Shown: in pieces, positions 26,817 through 38,298 of the stretch | Layout: every line of letters begins with the position of its first letter | Position numbering within the stretch: position 1 is the first letter of the stretch | Source of the DNA: Thermosipho atlanticus DSM 15807 | GTDB taxonomy: Bacteria; Thermotogota; Thermotogae; Thermotogales; Fervidobacteriaceae | Direction: 5' to 3' | DNA: 64,000 nucleotides | Assembly (NCBI RefSeq): GCF_900129985.1 | Contig: NZ_FQXN01000004.1 | Span: forward strand, 124,001-188,000 | Notes under the pieces: generated by a model | The model's database searches: none | What the model saw: only the letters and a program-made list of their open reading frames with translations | Told to the model about the DNA's origin: nothing | Translations under genes and position numbers: made by a program

Positions 26817-27747
26817 AATTAAAAAGGTATTGGAAGCTCTTCAAAAAGGGGAAATAACGGCTGATGAAGCGGAAGTGTTAATTCAAGCTATAAAGGAAAA
26901 AGAAAAAGCAGCGGAAGAAAAGATAAGATTTGAAGAAGAGCACGAAGAAAATGTTGAAGAAGAAAAAGTGTTTATGGGGGATAAAACAATAATTGCTGAA
27001 GGAGAAGTTTTTGAAGGTGATATTAATGTTGTGAGCGGTGAAGTAATCGTTAGAGGGACAGTGAAAGGTGATTGTTCAGTTGTTATGGGAAAACTTACTT
27101 TTTCTGGAGAAGTAATGGGAGATATGAATATTGTTGGTTCAAAAGTAAAATGGGAAGGGGGAATTATCCACGGGAGTTTAAATATTGTAGGGAGTAAAGA
27201 AAGTGGAAATATGCCAAAAGTTCGTGGAGGAATTACAAGGGTTAACAATCTATTTATGAGAGGTTTATTTGGTTTATTTTTAAAACCTTTTTTATCGGGA
27301 ATTGAGATAAAGAATGGGAATTTCAAAGGAAAATGGAATTTTAAGAAAAATAAAACACAAAAATTTGACACATTAATTGTAAAAGAAGGGGAAACTTTTG
27401 AAACAAAAGATGATATTGAAGCTGATGAGGTAATTGTTAATGGAAAACTTGTTTGTTCAAATTTAAAAACTGACAGTTTAGCAATATATGGTGAGATTTC
27501 ATGTGGTAATGTTTCGTCGGAAAAAATTATAGTTTCTGACTATGGAATTTTAAAATGTGGAAATATTTCTACTGAAAATATGATAATAGATGAAAATGCA
27601 TCTGTAAAATGTGGAAATATTAGTGCAGAGGATATTTATTTAAATGGTACTATTAGTGCGGGCTTTGTAAGTTGTGAAGTTATCAGGGGGAAAGGTAAAT
27701 TGAATACCGGGGGGATATCTTGTGAGGAGAATGAACTTGAGAGATAG
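26809..27747 (+). CDS. Beta-helix (bactofilin-like/polymer-forming) protein with SHOCT-like N-terminus
   Basis: 312-aa cytoplasmic-type protein. Residues 11-28 (LQKGEITADEAEVLIQAI) repeat the SHOCT-like motif of the preceding gene. A charged helix (30-55) and beta-helix repeats (about 65-135, Val/Gly-rich) follow, then a hydrophobic-basic segment (about 150-175). A second beta-helix of about 18-residue turns (200-305) has Cys216, Cys232, Cys250 and Cys268 at nearly equal spacing. It resembles bactofilins and YvlB/LiaX-type envelope-stress proteins, but no family is certain. Its end overlaps the GTG start of the MFS gene. Confidence 0.7.
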   Translation: MDEIKKVLEALQKGEITADEAEVLIQAIKEKEKAAEEKIRFEEEHEENVEEEKVFMGDKTIIAEGEVFEGDINVVSGEVIVRGTVKGDCSVVMGKLTFSGEVMGDMNIVGSKVKWEGGIIHGSLNIVGSKESGNMPKVRGGITRVNNLFMRGLFGLFLKPFLSGIEIKNGNFKGKWNFKKNKTQKFDTLIVKEGETFETKDDIEADEVIVNGKLVCSNLKTDSLAIYGEISCGNVSSEKIIVSDYGILKCGNISTENMIIDENASVKCGNISAEDIYLNGTISAGFVSCEVIRGKGKLNTGGISCEENELER

Positions 27748-29011
27748 GTTATTCGAGAAAAATTTTGTATTGTATATTTTAGGGAGATTAGTATCGTTAA
27801 TAGGATCGGGGATACAGATAGTGGCGATACCACTTTATATATTAGATTTAACAGGTTCAGGGACAGCGATGGGGATATTTACATTACTTGGAATGTTGCC
27901 AAGGTTATTGGCAGCACCCTTTGCAGGGGTGATAGGGGATAGATGGAATAGGAGAAATATAATGGTATGGACAGATTTTTTGAGGGGGATTTTGATATTA
28001 ATACTGGCGTTTTTGGCATATAAAGGTGCGATGGGGATAATAATATTGTTTATAGTACAGGCGATAGTATCGGTATTAGATGGATTTTTTGGGTCGGCGA
28101 CTGTAGCGATGTTGCCGGACATAGTAGAGAATGAACATTTAAGAGAAGCAAATTCAGTACTTGGTTCGGTAAATTCATTTTCAATGATAATAGGTCCAAT
28201 ATTGGGGGGAATCATATACGGTGTTTTAGGTATAGCGATGGTCTTTTTATTAAATGGTATATCATTTATAGTTTCAGCAATAAGTGAAATGTTTATAACT
28301 TACAATGTTGAGTTTAAAGAAAAAGGAAAATTGAACGTGACGAAGTTTTTAAAAGAATTTACACAGGGAATTGCTTTTATATTTAACAATCGAGGATTAA
28401 AGTACCTTTTTTCGTTTGCCATGGTTACAAACTTTCTGCTTAGTCCGCTTTTACAGGTGGTAGAACCGTATGTATTAAGACAGGTTGTCAAAATGAGTGC
28501 TCAACAATATGGTTTTGTTCAAACATTTTTTACTATTGGAATGTTGTTAGGGAATGTTATTTTAGTTGTATTTTTGAGTAAGGTGAAAAATAAAGTATTA
28601 ATAGTTGGGGGACTTTTTTTAGAGTTGTTCATGTTATTAGCGTTTTCCATACTGATTTTCCCAAATGTTTTGTCGAATTTTACAATTTGGAAATTTTTCT
28701 GGTTAACAGGAATTATTTATTTTGCTATAGGTCTCTTTAATATATTTGTCAATGTTCCAATATCAACAAATTTGCAACTTATGACTCCAACAAACATACG
28801 TTCGAGAGTTTTTTCTGCAGTTGAAATTTTTTCGCAACTTATGGTTCCGTTAGGTGCAGTTATTTACGGTTTTTTGTTGGATCGTGTTGCCGCTCACTTG
28901 TTATTTTTAGTTGTGAATTTAATTACAATTTTTATAGCTGTGATTTTTATAATTATTGCACCATACGAAGTTTACGAACCGAAATCGTCAGAAATGCAGG
29001 AGATTAGCTAA
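27722..29011 (+). CDS. MFS efflux transporter (copy A)
   Basis: 429-aa major-facilitator protein with about twelve transmembrane helices, of the MFS_3 (macrolide-efflux/EntS-like) type. The loop between helices 2 and 3, GVIGDRWNRRNIMVWTD, is the MFS signature. Start GTG at 27722, 7 nt after a GGGGGG tract; copy B aligns from exactly the same residue, which supports it over ATG 27731. Its first half is almost identical in DNA to copy B (31000). An ABC exporter follows at once, suggesting export of toxic or envelope compounds. The substrate is unknown. Confidence 0.85.
   Translation: MRRMNLRDRLFEKNFVLYILGRLVSLIGSGIQIVAIPLYILDLTGSGTAMGIFTLLGMLPRLLAAPFAGVIGDRWNRRNIMVWTDFLRGILILILAFLAYKGAMGIIILFIVQAIVSVLDGFFGSATVAMLPDIVENEHLREANSVLGSVNSFSMIIGPILGGIIYGVLGIAMVFLLNGISFIVSAISEMFITYNVEFKEKGKLNVTKFLKEFTQGIAFIFNNRGLKYLFSFAMVTNFLLSPLLQVVEPYVLRQVVKMSAQQYGFVQTFFTIGMLLGNVILVVFLSKVKNKVLIVGGLFLELFMLLAFSILIFPNVLSNFTIWKFFWLTGIIYFAIGLFNIFVNVPISTNLQLMTPTNIRSRVFSAVEIFSQLMVPLGAVIYGFLLDRVAAHLLFLVVNLITIFIAVIFIIIAPYEVYEPKSSEMQEIS
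27983..28113 (+). repeat. 131-nt identical block shared by the two MFS genes (copy A)
   Basis: These 131 nt are identical to 31261-31391. Flanking DNA back to about 27780 and on to about 28180 is also nearly identical, then similarity drops sharply. It uses GGG, GCG and ATA codons heavily compared with the rest of both genes. Confidence 0.85.
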
Positions 29012-29014
29012 TAT

Positions 29015-29947
29015 ATGGAAGCTTTAGAAGTTGAAGGATTAAAGAAGACATATGTTTCAAAGAACAAAAGGGTTGAAGCAGTTAGAGGTATAAGTTTTTA
29101 TGTGAACAAGGGAGAGGTCTTTTCAATACTTGGGCCGAATGGCGCAGGGAAGACCACTACTATAAAGGCTATACTAAGATTAGTTATACCAGAAGAAGGA
29201 AAAGTACATGTAAATAGAATTGATATTTCCAAACACATTTCTGAAGCACTAAAAAATTTATCTGCAGTTTTAGAAGGCAATAGAAACATTCATTGGAAAA
29301 TGACGGTATATGAAAATTTAAGATATTTTGGTTATATTCGGGGATTAGGGGGACGATTTTTAAAAAGGAGAGTAGAAGAGGTGTTAGAATTTGTTGAACT
29401 TACAGATAAAAGAAATGAACTAGCTGGAAAACTTTCTAGGGGAATGCAACAAAGATTGGCAATAGCAATAGCTTTACTTCCAGATACTCCTATTATACTT
29501 TTAGATGAACCAACATTAGGGCTTGATGTTGAATCATCTATAAAAGTTCGTGAAATGTTAATTAGATTAGCTAAAAAGGGTAAAACAATTTTATTATCTA
29601 CTCATGATATGCATCTTGTTGAAAAAGTAGCTGATAGAGTTTTGATAATAAACAATGGAAAAGTTATAGTTTGTGATAAAAAGGAGAATCTCATTAATGC
29701 GTTTAAAAAGAAAGCTTATAAGATAGTTTTTGAAGGAGAAGATCATTATGTTGATTTGAAAAAGTACGGAAAATTATATGAAGAAAATGGAGAAAAAATT
29801 CTAGAGGTGCAATTAGAAAATATGGAAGAACTATATAAAATAATGGATTATTTTAAAGAAAAACAAATAGAAATAAAACATCTTGAAAGTATTATGATTA
29901 ATTTCGAGGAAATATTTGTGAACTTTGTCAGGAGTGGTAGGCAGTGA
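29015..29947 (+). CDS. ABC transporter ATP-binding protein (ABC-2 type exporter)
   Basis: 310-aa ATPase of an ABC-2-type exporter. Walker A GPNGAGKTT near residue 40, signature LSRGMQQRLAIA (LSGGQ variant) near 140, Walker B IILLDEPTLGLD near 160 and the STHDMHLVEKVADRV switch histidine are in place. The C-terminal 90 residues are the extension usual in drug or lipid exporters. It starts 3 nt after the MFS stop and overlaps its permease by 4 nt. Confidence 0.93.
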   Translation: MEALEVEGLKKTYVSKNKRVEAVRGISFYVNKGEVFSILGPNGAGKTTTIKAILRLVIPEEGKVHVNRIDISKHISEALKNLSAVLEGNRNIHWKMTVYENLRYFGYIRGLGGRFLKRRVEEVLEFVELTDKRNELAGKLSRGMQQRLAIAIALLPDTPIILLDEPTLGLDVESSIKVREMLIRLAKKGKTILLSTHDMHLVEKVADRVLIINNGKVIVCDKKENLINAFKKKAYKIVFEGEDHYVDLKKYGKLYEENGEKILEVQLENMEELYKIMDYFKEKQIEIKHLESIMINFEEIFVNFVRSGRQ

Positions 29948-30699
29948 AATATTTAAATGTATTCAAAGGAACATTATTGAGGAGTTTTACAGAAGTAAAA
30001 CGATATTATTTAAACACCTTAACTTCTTTTGGAATAATGACAATGATTTTTTATTTTATTGTCGTTGGAATAAATAAATTTGGAAATCCAGCTGTTCTTG
30101 GTGAAAGTGTTCAAGCAATTGCGATTGGTTATATTGTCTGGATGGCTCTAATTGGTACAATGACTGATCTTTCATGGACTATTATTAACGATACTAATAT
30201 AGGTTTAATAGAACAAACGTTTATTTCACCAATTGGTCCAACAGTGATTTATTTATTGTACCAATTTTCCAATTTAATAATTGTAATACCCATGGAACTT
30301 GTCATAATGGTGATAGTTTTCAAGATTGCCGGTATACCAGTTTTAATTCCTTTAAGTTTCTTTATTGCTCTTGTATTGTTGATGATACAAGGATATGGAA
30401 TAGGATTAGTACTTGCGGGTATGACTTTAAAGTTCAAACGAACTCAATCAATTCTTACTTTGTTACAGTTTGGGATTGTGGGAGTTTTGATGGGTAATTA
30501 TGAAGGAATATGGAAGTATATTGTTCCAGCTAATGGATTTATACAAATATTTAAAAATATAGTTAATGGTAAGGGAACAACTTTAAATGATTGGTTTTAT
30601 ATGTTAATTTCATCAAGTATATATGTAATTGCAGGTATCTTGATATTTGAATGTTTTGCAAGGATTGTAAGAAGAAAAGGAGAAATTGCACAATATTGA
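29944..30699 (+). CDS. ABC-2 type permease
   Basis: 251-aa membrane subunit with six predicted helices, pairing with the preceding ATPase. The sequence fits ABC-2 permeases (for example GLIEQTFISPIGPTVIYLLY in the coupling region). Start GTG at 29944 overlapping the ATPase stop. Substrate unknown; the company of an MFS efflux pump suggests drug or lipid export. Last gene before a terminator. Confidence 0.88.
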   Translation: MKYLNVFKGTLLRSFTEVKRYYLNTLTSFGIMTMIFYFIVVGINKFGNPAVLGESVQAIAIGYIVWMALIGTMTDLSWTIINDTNIGLIEQTFISPIGPTVIYLLYQFSNLIIVIPMELVIMVIVFKIAGIPVLIPLSFFIALVLLMIQGYGIGLVLAGMTLKFKRTQSILTLLQFGIVGVLMGNYEGIWKYIVPANGFIQIFKNIVNGKGTTLNDWFYMLISSSIYVIAGILIFECFARIVRRKGEIAQY

Positions 30700-30728
30700 A
30701 ATGTAAGCGTAACCTTTATTAGAAATGC

Positions 30729-30761
30729 CATGGCCTCTGTTTATTGAGGCCATGTTTTTTT
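30729..30761 (+). terminator. Terminator of the DUF2089-MFS-ABC operon
   Basis: CATGGCCTC/GAGGCCATG stem with an 8-nt loop (30729-30754) and T7 after it. Confidence 0.92.
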
Positions 30762-30860
30762 ATAATATATGCTACTTTATTTATGCAATGAATTTATAAT
30801 TCAAGTAAAATTAATATAAAAGCAAATATTTGGCAAAATATGTAATGTAATAGTATATTA

Positions 30861-30900
30861 GCAAACTGATTTGCAATGATATAATAAAAAAAGTTATAAT
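30861..30900 (+). promoter_or_regulatory. Promoter with overlapping operator-like palindrome, MFS copy B
   Basis: TTGCAA (30871-30876), 18-nt spacer and TATAAT (30895-30900). The palindrome GCAAA-CTGA-TTTGC (30861-30874) overlaps the -35 box, so a repressor bound here would block the promoter. Confidence 0.55.
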
Positions 30901-30999
30901 ACAGTAAGGAGTTTAAAAAATTTTTTGATCTTTTCTATTCTAAAGTTCTAATTGTGTAAATAACATAGTTTTAGAACAATTCATGGGAGGGGGATCTAA

Positions 31000-32277
31000 G
31001 TGAAGAGAAAATCTCCGAAAAATAGTTTATTTGCCAGGAATTTTGTTTTATACATATTGGGGAGATTAGTATCGTTAATAGGATCGGGGATACAGATGGT
31101 AGCGATACCACTCTATATATTAGATTTAACAGGGTCAGGAACAGCGATGGGGATATTTACATTACTTGGGATGTTGCCAAGGTTATTGGCAGCACCCTTT
31201 GCGGGAGTAATAGGTGATAGGTGGAACAGAAAAAATATAATGGTATGGACAGATTTTTTAAGGGGGATTTTGATATTAATACTGGCGTTTTTGGCATATA
31301 AAGGTGCGATGGGGATAATAATATTGTTTATAGTACAGGCGATAGTATCGGTATTAGATGGATTTTTTGGGTCGGCGACTGTAGCGATGTTACCGGACAT
31401 AGTAGAGAATGAACATTTAAGAAAAGCAAATTCAGTACTTGGTTCAGTAAATTCATTTTCAATGGTAATTGGCCCAGCATTAGGTGGAATTATTTATGGG
31501 ATTTCAGGAATAGCAATAGTCTTTTTGTTAAATGGTATATCATTTGTAGTTTCTGCAATAAGTGAAATGTTTATAACATATGAAATGAGGTTTAAAAGTG
31601 ACCAAAAACTTAACTTTAAACTTTTTATTGTAGAATTCAAGGAAGGATTACTATTTATATTTAGGAAACGGGAATTAAAATATCTTGTTTCTTTTGCTTT
31701 ATTGATTAATTTCTTGTTGTATCCGCTCTATGAGGTTGTAGAACCATACGTTCTTAGGCAAGTAGTAAAATTTGACGCTCAACAGTATGGATTTATACAA
31801 GCAATTTTTACTGTGGGGTTGCTTGTAGGAAATGTTATTTTAGCGTCATTTCTGAGTAAAGCTAGAAGTAAAGTTCTTATGATCTCTGGAATCTTTTCTC
31901 AAACAGCAATGCTCATAGTTTTCAGTATATTTATTTTTCCAAATATTTTATCCCTTTATGCTATTTGGGAATTTTTCATTATAACAGGTGTAATTTACTT
32001 TGTAATAGGTTTCTTTAATACATTTGTTAATGTTCCCGTATCAACAAATTTGCAACTGATGACTCCAACAAATATAAGGTCTAGGGTATTTGCCTCCCTT
32101 GAGGTATTAATACAGCTTATGATACCACTTGGTGCAGTTTTGTATGGGTTCTTGTTAGATCATGTTCCAGCTCATCTTATATTTTTGGTAATATCCCTTT
32201 CTGTATTGGCAGTATCATTGATTTTTGTATTTATTTCACCTGAAGAGATGTTTGAGCCAAAAATAGAAGAGGCTTAA
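31000..32277 (+). CDS. MFS efflux transporter (copy B)
   Basis: 425-aa paralogue of copy A, again MFS_3 type with about twelve helices and loop GVIGDRWNRKNIMVWTD. Start GTG at 31000 after GGGAGGGGG. The first ~150 codons after the N-terminal tip are nearly identical in DNA to copy A; the second half is homologous but clearly diverged (for example EFKEGLLFIFRKRELKYLV against EFTQGIAFIFNNRGLKYLF). It has its own promoter and operator-like repeats. It ends 7 nt from a convergent gene, with no clear terminator. Confidence 0.85.
   Translation: MKRKSPKNSLFARNFVLYILGRLVSLIGSGIQMVAIPLYILDLTGSGTAMGIFTLLGMLPRLLAAPFAGVIGDRWNRKNIMVWTDFLRGILILILAFLAYKGAMGIIILFIVQAIVSVLDGFFGSATVAMLPDIVENEHLRKANSVLGSVNSFSMVIGPALGGIIYGISGIAIVFLLNGISFVVSAISEMFITYEMRFKSDQKLNFKLFIVEFKEGLLFIFRKRELKYLVSFALLINFLLYPLYEVVEPYVLRQVVKFDAQQYGFIQAIFTVGLLVGNVILASFLSKARSKVLMISGIFSQTAMLIVFSIFIFPNILSLYAIWEFFIITGVIYFVIGFFNTFVNVPVSTNLQLMTPTNIRSRVFASLEVLIQLMIPLGAVLYGFLLDHVPAHLIFLVISLSVLAVSLIFVFISPEEMFEPKIEEA
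31261..31391 (+). repeat. 131-nt identical block shared by the two MFS genes (copy B)
   Basis: Identical to 27983-28113; see the finding on the mosaic transporters. Confidence 0.85.
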
Positions 32278-32284
32278 AGGTAAT

Positions 32285-32839
32285 TTATTTATTTTTATAA
32301 TACTCTGTAACTTTATCAAAAGCTTTGTCTAATTCTTTGAGCAATCTTTCCTTGTCTTTTAAAGCAAGTTTAGAATTTTCGTTAATTTCTTTTACTTTTT
32401 GATAAAACAACATGTTTGCTTGTGTATATGACATATTGGGAGAGAGTCCCAATTTTCTAAATGCAGCTATTGTTTCTTCGTCTAACCCTACATTTTTAAG
32501 CTCTGCTTCTACATTTCTTCTTGTCTGATGGGTAATATTTTTAAATATGGAAAAGAGTATACTAAATATAATCAATGCAGGAATTATGGAAATAAATACT
32601 TTGAACAGAACGTCTAGTCCATAAAGTGGTGGATAAAATTCTAATGTAAATCTACTGAACAAAGAAAAGAATGTAAAGAAAAAGATAATTCCTATTGTTA
32701 ATGAAACAATGGATGAAATTATTTTACCAATGTTTACTCCTGCCTTACGTCTTATAAATACTTTGCTTATAATTGATAATACAAAGATAATTATAAAAAA
32801 TACTGTTATCAAAGTTTGAATATCTAAAGCTGGTGTCAT
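32285..32839 (-). CDS. Membrane protein with cytosolic helical tail, function unknown
   Basis: 184-aa protein with three transmembrane helices (about 8-28, 42-70, 80-108) and a charged helical C-terminus (115-184). The tail segment SYTQANMLFYQKVKEINENS and the following Lys/Glu helix have the helical rhythm of a J-domain, but the HPD tripeptide is absent. Start ATG at 32839 behind AAAGGGGGA. It is convergent with MFS copy B with a 7-nt gap. No family recognised. Confidence 0.65.
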   Translation of the reverse strand: MTPALDIQTLITVFFIIIFVLSIISKVFIRRKAGVNIGKIISSIVSLTIGIIFFFTFFSLFSRFTLEFYPPLYGLDVLFKVFISIIPALIIFSILFSIFKNITHQTRRNVEAELKNVGLDEETIAAFRKLGLSPNMSYTQANMLFYQKVKEINENSKLALKDKERLLKELDKAFDKVTEYYKNK

Positions 32840-32988
32840 GTGTAAATTCCCCCTTTCCAATAAATATGGAGTAAGACATTTATTTAAAAAATGGATATTA
32901 CATTTAAAAAAGATTATGTGTTAAGTAAAATATAATCATTTTTAGTATACCATGAAAGATATATTAAAAGATTAAACGGGAAAACTAA

Positions 32989-33037
32989 TTGACATATGAG
33001 GAAAAACGTTATAAAATAATTGTGAAAAAAATAACAT
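32989..33037 (+). promoter_or_regulatory. Promoter and Rex-like half site before the truncated Fe-S gene
   Basis: TTGACA (32989-32994), 17-nt spacer, TAAAAT (33012-33017). Directly downstream TTGTGAA (33020-33026), four A and ATAACAT resemble a Rex operator with one good half. The promoter looks intact although the gene is truncated. Confidence 0.55.
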
Positions 33038-33054
33038 ATTTTTGGGTGAAAAAT

Positions 33055-33213
33055 ATGGAAATAAAGGTTTGTATGGGAAGTTCGTGTCATTTGAAAGGTG
33101 CTCATAAAATTGTTGAAAAGATCAAAAAAATGAGTTTAGATAACTTAGAATTGAAAGGGTCTTTGTGTTTTGGAGAATGTGCTATACAATTTTTACATAA
33201 ATCAGTCACGTAA
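33055..33213 (+). pseudogene. Truncated thioredoxin-like [2Fe-2S] protein
   Basis: N-terminal fragment of a thioredoxin-like [2Fe-2S] ferredoxin (NuoE C-terminal/HndA type): VCMGSSCHLKG and GSLCFGEC supply the four cysteines (Cys6, Cys11, Cys38, Cys42). After Cys42 the frame runs into the reverse complement of a hydrogenase-like gene and stops at 33213, so about half the domain is missing. Start ATG at 33055, with a weak GGGTGA ribosome site. It may still make a short peptide but not a complete domain. Confidence 0.7.
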
Positions 33214-33566
33214 TATTTTCCACCAGGACAATCATTACAAACATCTTTTATTACTCCCAACCCAGGATTTTCAACTAATAATGGTGATGTACCATCTATA
33301 ATTTTTTCCATTTGTTCAGCAATTTCATATAGTTCAAGTTCTCGAACTTTTTTATAATCAAGCCCGAGAATAAATTTGATCTTTTCCTTTAAAATTTCAC
33401 GTTCGTAAAAAACACGAGTTCTACCCTCACCGTTTATTTCGGGAATTAATTTTTTAGGAATTTTCGGAAGAACATCTTTAAGATTTCCATTTCTATAGCT
33501 CTTAATTATCTCCATATAGAGCATTCTTCTTAGTTTGATTACATTATTTAGAACAAATCTTCTCAT
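33102..33566 (-). pseudogene. Truncated N-terminus of an [FeFe]-hydrogenase-like Fe-S protein
   Basis: Reads as the N-terminal ~128 residues of an [FeFe]-hydrogenase-like protein (monomeric/group B type): a helical region, then CNDCPGGKYYVTDLCKNC, the start of the ferredoxin-type cluster region. At about 33180 the natural continuation (further Cys and CP motifs) is lost and the frame passes into antisense of the fragment at 33055, ending at 33102. The catalytic H-cluster domain is absent. Start ATG at 33566 after GGAGGAGAT, overlapping the upstream stop (ATGA). Confidence 0.7.
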
Positions 33567-33826
33567 TTGATCTCCTCCAAACACGAAAAAATAATCTCTC
33601 TTAATTTTTCTGGAGTGACAGATGTATATGTTGTATCATTCACTCTTACTATTGGTGGAGTATGGCCTTTGTTACAATCCCCGAAACACAAAGAATATTT
33701 AAAATTCAAATGTTTTTTAACTTCATCAGAAAGAGTTTCAACCATATTTACTAATGCGTTTGACCCCATTAAATGACAGGCAGTACCAACACAAATTTCC
33801 ACATTAATTTTTTTCAAGTTGTTCAT
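33563..33826 (-). CDS. Thioredoxin-like [2Fe-2S] ferredoxin
   Basis: 87-aa protein with the complete [2Fe-2S] pattern of the NuoE/HndA C-terminal domain: VCVGTACHLMG-type motif ICVGTACHLMG (Cys12, Cys17) and SLCFGDCNKG. It carries single electrons between NADH- or ferredoxin-linked hydrogenase modules. Start ATG at 33826 after AAGGGAGTGAT. It is the first gene of the minus operon whose second gene is truncated, so its electron partner may be lost or elsewhere. The upstream region has a strong Rex-like operator. Confidence 0.88.
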   Translation of the reverse strand: MNNLKKINVEICVGTACHLMGSNALVNMVETLSDEVKKHLNFKYSLCFGDCNKGHTPPIVRVNDTTYTSVTPEKLREIIFSCLEEIK

Positions 33827-33879
33827 ACGATCACTCCCTTTTATTGAAATAATAACTAATTACCTATATTTACAACATA

Positions 33880-33897
33880 TTGTTATATTTTTCACAA
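33880..33897. promoter_or_regulatory. Rex-like operator upstream of the Fe-S operon
   Basis: TTGTTAT-ATTT-TTCACAA against the general Rex consensus TTGTGAA-N4-TTCACAA: one half perfect, the other 5 of 7. It lies 54 nt before the start codon of the minus-strand [2Fe-2S] gene, where it could cover that promoter. Confidence 0.65.
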
Positions 33898-34156
33898 TAT
33901 ATATTATCATTATTTTTTTAGGAACTTTGTTTAATTAAGATTAAAAATTCGAAACAAAAAGTTTTAAACATTAATTAATTTTCAATATTAAATCTTTAGT
34001 TTAAGTGTAGTAAAATTCCCTTATTCTATTTTACTACTAAAAATTGATTTTAGTTACTTGATAGGTAAAGATTAACAAGAGTTTATACTTTAACTTTTAA
34101 AAAAATTCACGTTTTTATCGAGTAATAAATTTTTAATTTTTTGTTAACCTTGGAAA

Positions 34157-34174
34157 TTGTGAAATAATTTTCAA
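34157..34174. promoter_or_regulatory. Rex-like operator upstream of rex
   Basis: TTGTGAA-ATAA-TTTTCAA: one half perfect, the other 5 of 7 against TTCACAA. It lies 65 nt before the rex start, consistent with autoregulation. Confidence 0.55.
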
Positions 34175-34238
34175 ATACTCATATTGATGATACAATAATA
34201 GATAGAAATAAGTTAAAAATGTAAATGAGGTGTAAAGC

Positions 34239-34880
34239 ATGTCAGAATGTTCTAATAATAAAAAAACATTGATGTTTCCAAAACCAACACTTGAGAGATT
34301 AAAACTTTATCTAGCGTTGTTATTGCAAGAAGAAAAAGAATATATTTCTTCGGATGAAATTGCTAAAAAATTAAAAATTACACCTGAGCAAGTTAGAAAA
34401 GATATTTCATATCTAAATTTCGTAGGAAAACCCAAAGTTGGTTATCATATTCCTTCACTTTTAAATGAATTAAATGAACTTTTTGGAGTTGATGTTACTG
34501 ATAATGTTATTGTCGTTGGAGCGGGGGGGTTAGGAACTGCTATTGCGAAATACAAAGGGTTTAAAAGAATAGGAATAGATATAGTTGCAATTTTTGACAA
34601 TGATGAAGACAAAATCGGAACTTTTGTGAGTGAACTTGTAGTTCTTCCATTGTCTGAACTTCAGAGGGTTATAAAAAGATTTAAAGTAAAAATAGCAGCT
34701 TTGTGTGTGCCAAAAGAATCAGCTCAAGAAGCCGCAGATTTACTTGTAAAAAGTGGCATAAAAGCTATTTGGAATTTTGCTCCCGCTATTTTACATGTAC
34801 CGCCTGGTATTTTAGTTGAAAATGAAGATATTACTAGGGGAATACTTTCAATTAAACATATGCTTGAAAAAAATAAGTAG
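34239..34880 (+). CDS. rex: Redox-sensing transcriptional repressor Rex
   Basis: 213-aa Rex repressor, which senses the NADH/NAD+ ratio and controls fermentation and hydrogenase genes. The N-terminal winged helix (about 15-75; SSDEIAKKLKITPEQVRKD) precedes a Rossmann fold with GAGGLG (94-99) and the DND of IVAIFDNDEDKIG. The C-terminal helix ends near residue 210, the usual length. Start ATG after ATGAGGTG. It is divergent from the Fe-S genes, its probable targets. The stop is 7 nt from the convergent MurF-like gene. Confidence 0.95.
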   Translation: MSECSNNKKTLMFPKPTLERLKLYLALLLQEEKEYISSDEIAKKLKITPEQVRKDISYLNFVGKPKVGYHIPSLLNELNELFGVDVTDNVIVVGAGGLGTAIAKYKGFKRIGIDIVAIFDNDEDKIGTFVSELVVLPLSELQRVIKRFKVKIAALCVPKESAQEAADLLVKSGIKAIWNFAPAILHVPPGILVENEDITRGILSIKHMLEKNK

Positions 34881-34887
34881 GAGATTT

Positions 34888-36435
34888 TCACATGTAGTTA
34901 TCTGGAAGATCATTTTCAAACAAAACAACATCACCTTGTTTTAAGAATTTTTTGAAAATTTCGGTAACTTCTTCAAGCGTGTCAACTACAAATATTCTTT
35001 CTTCTGGGAAATTAGAATCTAGGAGTCCTTTTTTTATTTCCTTAGTTCTATCTTTTCCAACTAAAAAGACATAGTCGGCGTATTTTGAAAGACTTTTTCC
35101 AAGTTTATAATGCTCCTCGTCTTCAATTTCTCCGAGTTCAACAAAACCTGGAGTAACAACTATCTTTCTTCTTCCATTGTAAAGTTTTAAATATTCAAGT
35201 GCCATTTTAAAGCCCTTTGGGTTTGAATTGAATGTATCATCAATAACTGTTATTGTATCATCCCTTATAATCTCTAACCTGTGTTTTGGTCTTTGAATGT
35301 CTTTGACTCTTTCTAAGACTTCTTCCACAGGTACCTTTATTTCAAAAGCAGTTACTATCGCAAGTAAAAGATTTCTTATATTTTCAATTCCAAATACGTT
35401 AGTTTCAATTTCAAAACTTACATCGTTGGGAGTTAGAAGCCTAAATTTAGAACCGTTTTTTTCTTGTTTGAGATCTTTTACTACATAATCTGCTTCATTA
35501 TTTTCAATTCCACAGGTTATTATTTTCTTATTCGAAATTTTGCTGATTACTTTTTTTACATTTTCATCATCTAGGTTCACTATTAACATCTTTCCAGATT
35601 TTTCATTTTCAAGATATTCTTTAAAAGTTTCAAAGATTTTTTCCATACTATCAAATTCTTCGAAGTGTTGAACACCAATGGATGTTAAAACCGAAATTTC
35701 AGGTTGAACAAGTTTTAAAAGTTTGTTGTATCCATATGAATCATTTTCGGCTAGCTCAACTACGAAGATTTCATGAGATTTATCAAGTTTTTCCCTTATC
35801 GTTTTTGTAATACCCATTGTGGTGTTATAACTTTCGGGAGTCATTAGAGTTTTATAATATTCTGAAACAATGTGATGAATAAAATATTTTGTGCTTGTTT
35901 TTCCATAGCTACCGGTTACGGCAATGGTTAAAGGTTTTAACCTTCTATATTTTCTAACAGCATCTTTGAAATAATAGTTGTTTATTAACCTTTCAATGGG
36001 AATCATAAGGCCATTTATTAGCCAGAAATAAATGGAATTAAATAGCACAAGAGAAAAAGTACAGATATCTAGGAGTATTGTGTTGTAAATTATTACTTCA
36101 ACAAAGAAAATTAAAAAGATTGTAAATGAAACAGTCAATAACCTTCTAAGTCTTTTTGTAAAAACCAGCGGTTTTTTCTTTTTTCTTAAAACAAATTTTC
36201 GAATATCTAGGTATAGAGAAAAAAGTCCGAATGGAATGGCGTAGAGAGGATTGAAAAAGTAGAGAATAATTGAAATTAAAAAAACAAAGTTCGAAAAATA
36301 TCTATCAAGATGGCTAAAAATCCATCTTATAAATTTTTTTTCTGAGTACTCTTCAAGTTGAAGCATATGAAGTGAATAGAACGATCTTATTAGAAAGCTT
36401 GCAGCTACTATACTGAGAAAGATGATTCTAGTCAT
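34888..36435 (-). CDS. Membrane-anchored Mur ligase (MurF-like)
   Basis: 515-aa protein. The N-terminal ~150 residues hold about four transmembrane helices with basic loops, which soluble MurF lacks. A Mur ligase domain follows: P-loop TGSYGKTST (174-182), SYNTTMGI near residue 205, the VELAEN catalytic segment, and a C-terminal domain with IDDTFNSNPKGF and the KPKHRLE-like RPKHRLE. MurF adds D-Ala-D-Ala to UDP-MurNAc-tripeptide; the ddl gene in the same operon supports D-Ala-D-Ala as substrate. Whether it is the main MurF or a specialised membrane version is unclear. It overlaps the hydrolase gene by 8 nt. Confidence 0.82.
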   Translation of the reverse strand: MTRIIFLSIVAASFLIRSFYSLHMLQLEEYSEKKFIRWIFSHLDRYFSNFVFLISIILYFFNPLYAIPFGLFSLYLDIRKFVLRKKKKPLVFTKRLRRLLTVSFTIFLIFFVEVIIYNTILLDICTFSLVLFNSIYFWLINGLMIPIERLINNYYFKDAVRKYRRLKPLTIAVTGSYGKTSTKYFIHHIVSEYYKTLMTPESYNTTMGITKTIREKLDKSHEIFVVELAENDSYGYNKLLKLVQPEISVLTSIGVQHFEEFDSMEKIFETFKEYLENEKSGKMLIVNLDDENVKKVISKISNKKIITCGIENNEADYVVKDLKQEKNGSKFRLLTPNDVSFEIETNVFGIENIRNLLLAIVTAFEIKVPVEEVLERVKDIQRPKHRLEIIRDDTITVIDDTFNSNPKGFKMALEYLKLYNGRRKIVVTPGFVELGEIEDEEHYKLGKSLSKYADYVFLVGKDRTKEIKKGLLDSNFPEERIFVVDTLEEVTEIFKKFLKQGDVVLFENDLPDNYM

Positions 36436-37189
36436 TTTTGTAAACCTCGCTCAGAAAGTTATTGAAATCACTTAAAAACTTTTCGAAATTTTCAATGTAA
36501 GGAAAATGTCCAGCATTTTTGTAGATTATAAGTCGAGAATTTCTAATTTTTTCATTGTATTTTTTTCCAATACTAACAGGAACATCCTTATCATTTTCTC
36601 CCCATATCAAAAGAGTTTTACATTTTATACTTTGAATTGTATCTGAGATATCTTCGTTTACTACTTTCTTTAAAATTTCTCTCATTGTTCCAGTTGATCT
36701 TTTGAAATCCTCTGAACCAAATTTGTTTTTGAGTTTTTCTAAAATAATCTCTTTTTTAGGAAAAACCGAGATAATCTTTTTTAAAAATTTGTAGAAGAAA
36801 ATTTTAATTGTAATTTTTAATTTTTTTTTGGTTTTTATCCCTGGAGAAGAAATTAAAACAAGACCTTTTAACCATTTAGGGTTATTACTTGCTATAATTG
36901 CAGCTACTTTTCCACCAAAGGAATGTCCAACAAGTATTGCTTCATCTATTTTTAGCTCTTCAATTAATTTCTGGATATAATTAGCATATTCAAAACTGTC
37001 AATAGTAGAGTTTGGAATGTCACTTTTCCCGAATCCTGGAAGATCAATTAAAACTGATTGATAATCTAATAGCCTCGTAATTGGGTAAAAAGAGTGTAAG
37101 TTACCTCCCCAACCATGAAGAAAAACGACAATTTTGCCCTTTCCAGTTATTTCAAAATTTATGTTTATACCATTTACATTTTTCTTCAT
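36428..37189 (-). CDS. Alpha/beta hydrolase
   Basis: 253-aa alpha/beta-hydrolase-fold protein. The oxyanion segment is FLHGWGGN, the nucleophile elbow GHSFGG has Ser90, the acid is in LIWGENDKDVP, and the base histidine is in NAGHFPYIE. A basic, hydrophobic cap region (about 125-160) may bind a lipid-like or membrane substrate. No signal peptide. It overlaps ddl by 4 nt (ATGA) and the MurF-like gene by 8 nt, so it belongs to the same pathway, but its substrate is unknown. Confidence 0.87.
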   Translation of the reverse strand: MKKNVNGININFEITGKGKIVVFLHGWGGNLHSFYPITRLLDYQSVLIDLPGFGKSDIPNSTIDSFEYANYIQKLIEELKIDEAILVGHSFGGKVAAIIASNNPKWLKGLVLISSPGIKTKKKLKITIKIFFYKFLKKIISVFPKKEIILEKLKNKFGSEDFKRSTGTMREILKKVVNEDISDTIQSIKCKTLLIWGENDKDVPVSIGKKYNEKIRNSRLIIYKNAGHFPYIENFEKFLSDFNNFLSEVYKND

Positions 37190-38298
37190 TTTGTCACCTT
37201 AATTGATAAGATGTTTGTGTCGATTGAATAAATTTTCTTTTTCTTGTCTTTGTAAACTTTTTCTGCAATGTTAATTAGATTATCAATTAAATGTGTAAAG
37301 GTTATTCCACTTGCTTGCCAAAGATAAAAAGCCATAGCGCCTGGTATGGTATTAACTTCATTTACGTAAATTTTATCTTTATACAAGAAGTCTATTCTTA
37401 TATTACCATAACAATCGAGGGATTTAAAAGTTTTTACTGCAAGCTTAATTATTTCCTGTTTAATATTTTCATCAAGCTCTGCAGGAATTTTGTGATTTGA
37501 AAATTTTTTCCCTTTGTTAATATATTTTTCCTTGAAGTCAAAAAATTCTTTTTGCTTTATAATTTCTTCAATTTCTGAGACAATTGGTTGTTTATATCCT
37601 AAAACTGCGCAATTTAATTCTTTTGCATTTTCGATGGACCTTTCCACAAGTATTTTGTTGTCAAAAGAAAAAGCTACTTCCGCCGAGGTTATAAATTCTT
37701 CCTTTGAATATACTTTTGATATTCCTATGCTTGATCCCAGCCTTGCAGGCTTAATGTACATAGGATATCCTAGTTCTTTTTCACATGTTTCAATGAATTT
37801 ATCATATGAAGAATCCCAATCTTGTTTTGTAATATATTTGAAGTCAACAACGGGGATATTGTTTTCTTTTAATATGAGTTTAGTTAGTACTTTATCCATT
37901 GCGATTGCTGAAGAAAGAATACCAGAACCAGTATATGGTATATCAAACATTTCGCAAAATCCTTGTAGCGAACCATCTTCACCGTACGTTCCGTGAGTTG
38001 CGAGAATACATAGATCGATTTCATATGTTTTAAAGTTGGTTTTTAACAAAAGTTTAGAATTCTTCTTTTTAAATTGATTAATCTTTTTAGCCTTTTTTTC
38101 AATAAGGTTTAAGTTTTTAAAATTTTCTATTTTTTCAAGTACCGAACCTGTATACCAATCCCCATCTTTATTAATGTATACAGGTATTACATTGTATTTA
38201 TTTCTATCAATTGCATTTAATATCTGATTTGCTGTTATAATGGAAATCTCATGCTCAACTGATTTTGAGCCAAAGATTACAGCTACGTTTTTTCTCAT
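37186..38298 (-). CDS. ddl: D-alanine--D-alanine ligase
   Basis: 370-aa ATP-grasp ligase joining two D-alanines for peptidoglycan. It shows FGSKSVEHEISI at the N-terminus, THGTYGEDGSLQG, KPARLGSSIGI, the omega-loop KEKY that retains the Tyr expected for D-Ala rather than D-lactate, IDFLYKDKIYVNEVNTIPG at the metal site. The unusual AFYLWQASGITF end is seen in some thermophile and clostridial ligases. Start ATG at 38298 after AGGAGGTATT. First gene of a three-gene minus operon. Confidence 0.93.
   Translation of the reverse strand: MRKNVAVIFGSKSVEHEISIITANQILNAIDRNKYNVIPVYINKDGDWYTGSVLEKIENFKNLNLIEKKAKKINQFKKKNSKLLLKTNFKTYEIDLCILATHGTYGEDGSLQGFCEMFDIPYTGSGILSSAIAMDKVLTKLILKENNIPVVDFKYITKQDWDSSYDKFIETCEKELGYPMYIKPARLGSSIGISKVYSKEEFITSAEVAFSFDNKILVERSIENAKELNCAVLGYKQPIVSEIEEIIKQKEFFDFKEKYINKGKKFSNHKIPAELDENIKQEIIKLAVKTFKSLDCYGNIRIDFLYKDKIYVNEVNTIPGAMAFYLWQASGITFTHLIDNLINIAEKVYKDKKKKIYSIDTNILSIKVTK

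Follow-up and report, generated by a model that had tools for sequence, protein, structure and literature searches.

A deletion of about 8.4 kb very probably truncated two convergent hydrogenase-operon genes in Thermosipho atlanticus DSM 15807

Architecture of the broken locus

The window, a 64,000-nucleotide stretch of contig NZ_FQXN01000004.1 of the heat-loving bacterium Thermosipho atlanticus DSM 15807, contains two broken hydrogenase-operon genes that meet at positions 33177-33184. The locus was compared with that of G002, the closest genome of the same genus that carries it (G002 region L017), and comprises the following features.

32285-32860, minus strand: conserved hypothetical protein of 191 aa on the left flank, collinear and 73% identical in G002
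32989-33017, plus strand: promoter-like site of the sigma-70 type, TTGACA-17-TAAAAT, ahead of the truncated [2Fe-2S] gene; 11 of 12 positions agree with the consensus
33020-33037, plus strand: Rex-box-like palindrome TTGTGAAAAAAATAACAT, one mismatch to the pattern, identical in G002 at L017:4642
33055-33184, plus strand: 5' ~43 codons of a truncated NuoE-like [2Fe-2S] gene (PF01257, E 7.8e-4), with antisense read-on to 33213, 52 aa in total
33177-33184, no strand: very probable deletion joint; the left-hand sequence ends no later than 33184 and the right-hand one starts no earlier than about 33177, with up to ~8 bp in common
33177-33566, minus strand: 5' ~128-130 codons of a truncated group B monomeric [FeFe] hydrogenase gene (TIGR04105), with antisense read-on to 33102, 154 aa in total
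33563-33826, minus strand: intact thioredoxin-like [2Fe-2S] protein, first gene of the broken minus-strand operon (PF01257, E 2.3e-10, 40.9 bits)
33880-33897, minus strand: Rex-box-like palindrome TTGTTATATTTTTCACAA upstream of the minus-strand operon; G002 has TTGTGATATTTTTCACAA at this position
34239-34880, plus strand: rex, encoding the redox-sensing repressor, on the right flank, collinear and 80% identical in G002

The plus-strand ORF (33055-33213) encodes MEIKVCMGSSCH...GSLCFGEC followed by AIQFLHKSVT, and the minus-strand ORF (33566-33102) encodes MRRFVLNN...TDLCKNCIAH followed by antisense residues; past 33177-33184, each ORF is the antisense of the other gene. The initial annotation had already described two hydrogenase-type Fe-S genes, each reading into the antisense of the other, and had placed the break at about 33174-33183, close to the joint given by the alignment with G002. 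Its term "head-to-head" has to be corrected, as the broken genes converge and hence meet tail to tail. The plus-strand stub keeps all four cysteines and lacks the C-terminal ~34 residues (the G002 counterpart has 77 aa); being cut short, it scores 19.7 bits against PF01257, below the 24.8-bit cut-off, compared to 39.6 bits for the G002 counterpart. The minus-strand stub matches positions 3-126 of the 462 positions of TIGR04105 (FeFe_hydrog_B1) with 71.2 bits, below a cut-off of 450 bits that is set over the whole protein, whereas the full-length G002 counterpart (500.8 bits) and a paralogue on contig C1 of the window genome (512.7 bits) both exceed it. This stub ends before the later [4Fe-4S] motifs and is devoid of the H-cluster domain; profile search found no PF02906 (H-cluster domain) in it, compared to an E value of 5.1e-60 for the G002 protein. 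The upstream [2Fe-2S] gene is intact, as previously proposed, and is 79% identical to that of G002, with a dN/dS of 0.054 at a dS near saturation.

The promoter-like site, of which TTGACA and TTATAAAATAATTGTGAAAAAAATAACAT are conserved in G002, agrees with the earlier proposal that the plus-strand gene has its own promoter. Both Rex-box-like palindromes resemble the published Rex operator consensus TTGTGAANNNNTTCACAA (PMC6391272), and, as judged from sequence, they are probably Rex operators through which Rex would bind and control the two operons. Over the whole window five Rex-box-like sites were found against 2.4 expected, a number that is not significant by itself. Another such site, with one mismatch, lies ahead of the [2Fe-2S] gene that accompanies the surviving group B paralogue (L020:5877; C1, ~437.9 kb). 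Further to the left, two closely similar MFS transporter genes (27722-29011 and 31000-32277) bracket an ABC transporter pair (29015-30699); this block is also present in G002, and G003 has two tandem MFS copies.

Comparison with the whole locus of G002

Search of 61 genomes revealed a 486-aa full-length counterpart of the minus-strand product in G002, with a sequence identity of 76%; the antisense tail has a separate match 8.4 kb off on the same contig. Alignment of the two loci gave a left block (window 28465-33184 against L017 1-4813) and a right block (window 33177-33960 against L017 13212-13993), followed by a further block that covers rex and the genes beyond (window 34154-37567 against L017 14530-18001). 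In the synteny comparison proposed in the initial annotation, the two G002 genes are complete and convergent, lie ~8.4 kb from each other, and have flanks that are collinear with the window on both sides. On the plus strand, the G002 interval encodes the rest of the [2Fe-2S] gene, a 541-aa HydS-like hydrogenase and a 400-aa SpoIIE-type phosphatase; its minus strand encodes a SpoIIE-type phosphatase (386 aa), a PAS protein (165 aa), a [2Fe-2S] protein (87 aa) and the remaining part of the 486-aa hydrogenase. It also holds a transglutaminase-like protein and a transposase-like fragment that was named by eye and has no match in Pfam. The 541-aa HydS-like protein contains PF02906 and no PAS domain above threshold, and its C-terminal part is 37% identical to part of the neighboring PAS protein. 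The minus-strand genes at L017:10210-13990 form one operon, in which a group B [FeFe] hydrogenase is accompanied by two [2Fe-2S] proteins, one PAS protein and one SpoIIE-type phosphatase; this layout suggests a signalling role for this hydrogenase copy.

When the window genome was searched with the missing G002 segment, the sole matches were the two stubs and, at C1:436 kb, a distant paralogue (66% DNA identity), and no reciprocal junction was found; the protein of this older group B paralogue is 57% identical to the broken one. Collinear flanks around two intact genes in a relative, together with a segment that occurs nowhere else in the window genome, point to a deletion of ~8.4 kb. We are therefore highly confident that a single deletion truncated both genes and left their front ends fused tail to tail, in line with the earlier view that one rearrangement had removed the catalytic part. 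The length of 8.4 kb is an estimate, since the transposase-like fragment and the transglutaminase-like gene may be particular to G002.

In the proposed course of events, the ancestor would have had, between rex and the MFS/hypothetical block, two operons that converge. The plus-strand operon would have encoded a [2Fe-2S] protein, a HydS-like sensor hydrogenase and a SpoIIE-type phosphatase, and the minus-strand operon a [2Fe-2S] protein, a group B [FeFe] hydrogenase, a second [2Fe-2S] protein, a PAS protein and a SpoIIE-type phosphatase. Breaks at about codon 43 of the first plus-strand gene and about codon 129 of the gene for the hydrogenase would have led to the loss of everything in between. 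Bacterial deletions occur between short repeats or by end joining. At the break, TG[T/A]GC[T/A]A is common to the two parental sequences of G002, left and right, a homology of at most ~8 bp, the exact length of which is uncertain as G002 has diverged at the joint (right side TGAGCAA versus TGTGCTA in the window); end joining or short-repeat slippage may thus have sealed the ends. The stubs should still be transcribed toward each other, and would encode no hydrogenase.

Age of the deletion and alternative readings

Compared to G002, there are no gaps, stops or frameshifts in the 128 codons of the hydrogenase fragment or in the 44 aligned codons of the [2Fe-2S] fragment. The dN/dS values of the two fragments are 0.131 and 0.137, respectively, and those of intact neighbors range from 0.05 to 0.18. 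The dN/dS of the 191-aa flank gene was set aside, as its alignment for this purpose had an identity of only 7.9%, probably owing to a misaligned start. Relative-rate tests of the hydrogenase fragment revealed no excess of amino-acid changes on the window side (2-8 unique to the window against 3-7 unique to G002, depending on the outgroup); for the [2Fe-2S] fragment, the counts of 5 on the window side against 1 are not significant in such a short sequence. In a neutral simulation, in which G002 stands in for the ancestor and indels are ignored, the probability of having acquired no stop over 20% of the branch is 0.055, 0.012 and 0.0055 for a branch dS of 0.4, 0.6 and 0.8, respectively, and the simulated amino-acid changes at this point already exceed the number seen. 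The undecayed fragments and the lack of a significant excess of amino-acid change indicate that the deletion is young compared with the split from G002, in keeping with the initial annotation, in which the loss may be recent, and the simulation dates it to within roughly the last 10-20% of the branch. Selection on the stubs, as an alternative to a recent deletion, is less likely and is not needed.

It is very improbable that the stubs serve as small, functional Fe-S proteins of 52 and 154 aa, retained under Rex control, instead of being pseudogenes. Their open frames, the intact four-cysteine [2Fe-2S] motif, the conserved promoter-like site and Rex-like boxes, and the dN/dS of 0.13-0.14 would fit such a role; however, the low dN/dS mostly reflects the time before the deletion, and antisense residues have taken the place of the C-terminal part of the [2Fe-2S] fold and of the entire H-cluster domain. 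Moreover, full-length homologues with exactly these C-termini, which had been named as the finding that would speak against a break, were absent from the 61 genomes searched; other genomes match the native part in full-length genes, or the antisense tail as a separate gene. An assembly artefact, namely a collapsed or chimeric joint, is very improbable. The assembly is a draft of 11 contigs and both sides of the joint encode related Fe-S proteins, but the ~8 bp at most that are shared are too short for assembler collapse, as assembler word lengths normally lie far above this; in addition, the lost genes are on none of the contigs, and the assembly has a completeness of 99% and a contamination of 0.02%. 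There is an even slimmer chance that the stubs persist as convergent transcripts under the control of Rex and still regulate the remaining hydrogenase genes, either through their short Fe-S products or as mutual antisense RNAs. As for the earlier wording "inversion or deletion", only the deletion stands: an inversion, in which the other gene ends would lie reciprocally joined elsewhere in the genome, would give facing fragments of the same appearance when the window is viewed alone, but it has next to no probability and was rejected, since the 3' part of neither gene occurs elsewhere in the assembly, no reciprocal junction exists there, and the nearest relative with the locus already has convergent genes between the same flanks. 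Following the deletion, both stubs are very probably pseudogenes that arose by ordinary pseudogenisation, and the locus by itself is a case of ordinary gene decay with an unusually clean scar.

Hydrogenases of the genus and comparison with known systems

The window genome retains a 587-aa HydA-like hydrogenase, the group B paralogue and the HydG maturase; these remaining genes would explain why the loss could be tolerated, a part of the initial annotation that is plausible. Most of the 41 genomes searched, G001 and G002 among them, have a HydS-like gene, and the same query detected only distant hydrogenases in the window genome (best E 1.2e-23, 32% identity). The best HydB match is 92% identical in G001 and 52% identical in G002, G003 and the window genome. 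In G007, G010 and G012 the gene order is [2Fe-2S], HydS-like, SpoIIE-like, HydC, HydB, HydA and Rex, and G001 has the same order from HydS-like through Rex; in G002, the convergent group B operon adjoins rex in place of HydCBA. Within the genus the hydrogenases are thinned out stepwise: a close HydB occurs in G001 alone, HydS-like genes are confined to G001 and G002, and G003 has just one PF02906 protein. In G031 (C1:1435766-1437324), the HydS-like match falls into two overlapping parts, of 306 and 263 aa, that lie in separate open frames, possibly due to a frameshift. Our literature search on Thermosipho hydrogenases and Rex found nothing specific. Altogether, the locus records a recent, roughly dateable loss of sensor-type and group B hydrogenase operons that fits the wider thinning, and the genus provides a small natural series in which the role of the poorly understood sensor hydrogenases can be studied.

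Compared with known bacterial deletions via short repeats or end joining, the event shares the clean single loss of several kilobases and the few shared bases at the joint, and is unusual only in cutting two convergent related operons at once. Gut group B [FeFe] hydrogenases are active in H2 production and ferredoxin reoxidation (PMC12578642). The minus-strand stub matches the N-terminus of the group B monomeric [FeFe] hydrogenases in TIGR04105, but ends after ~128 of 486 codons, without the catalytic domain. The plus strand of G002 carries the [2Fe-2S]/HydS-like/SpoIIE-like set known from HydS, the sensory [FeFe] hydrogenase of Thermotoga maritima (PMC10055695), without HydCBA. Compared to the HydS operon of Thermotoga maritima, the window genome keeps only ~43 codons of the first gene and has lost the HydS-like and SpoIIE-like genes, and no close HydB was found in it.
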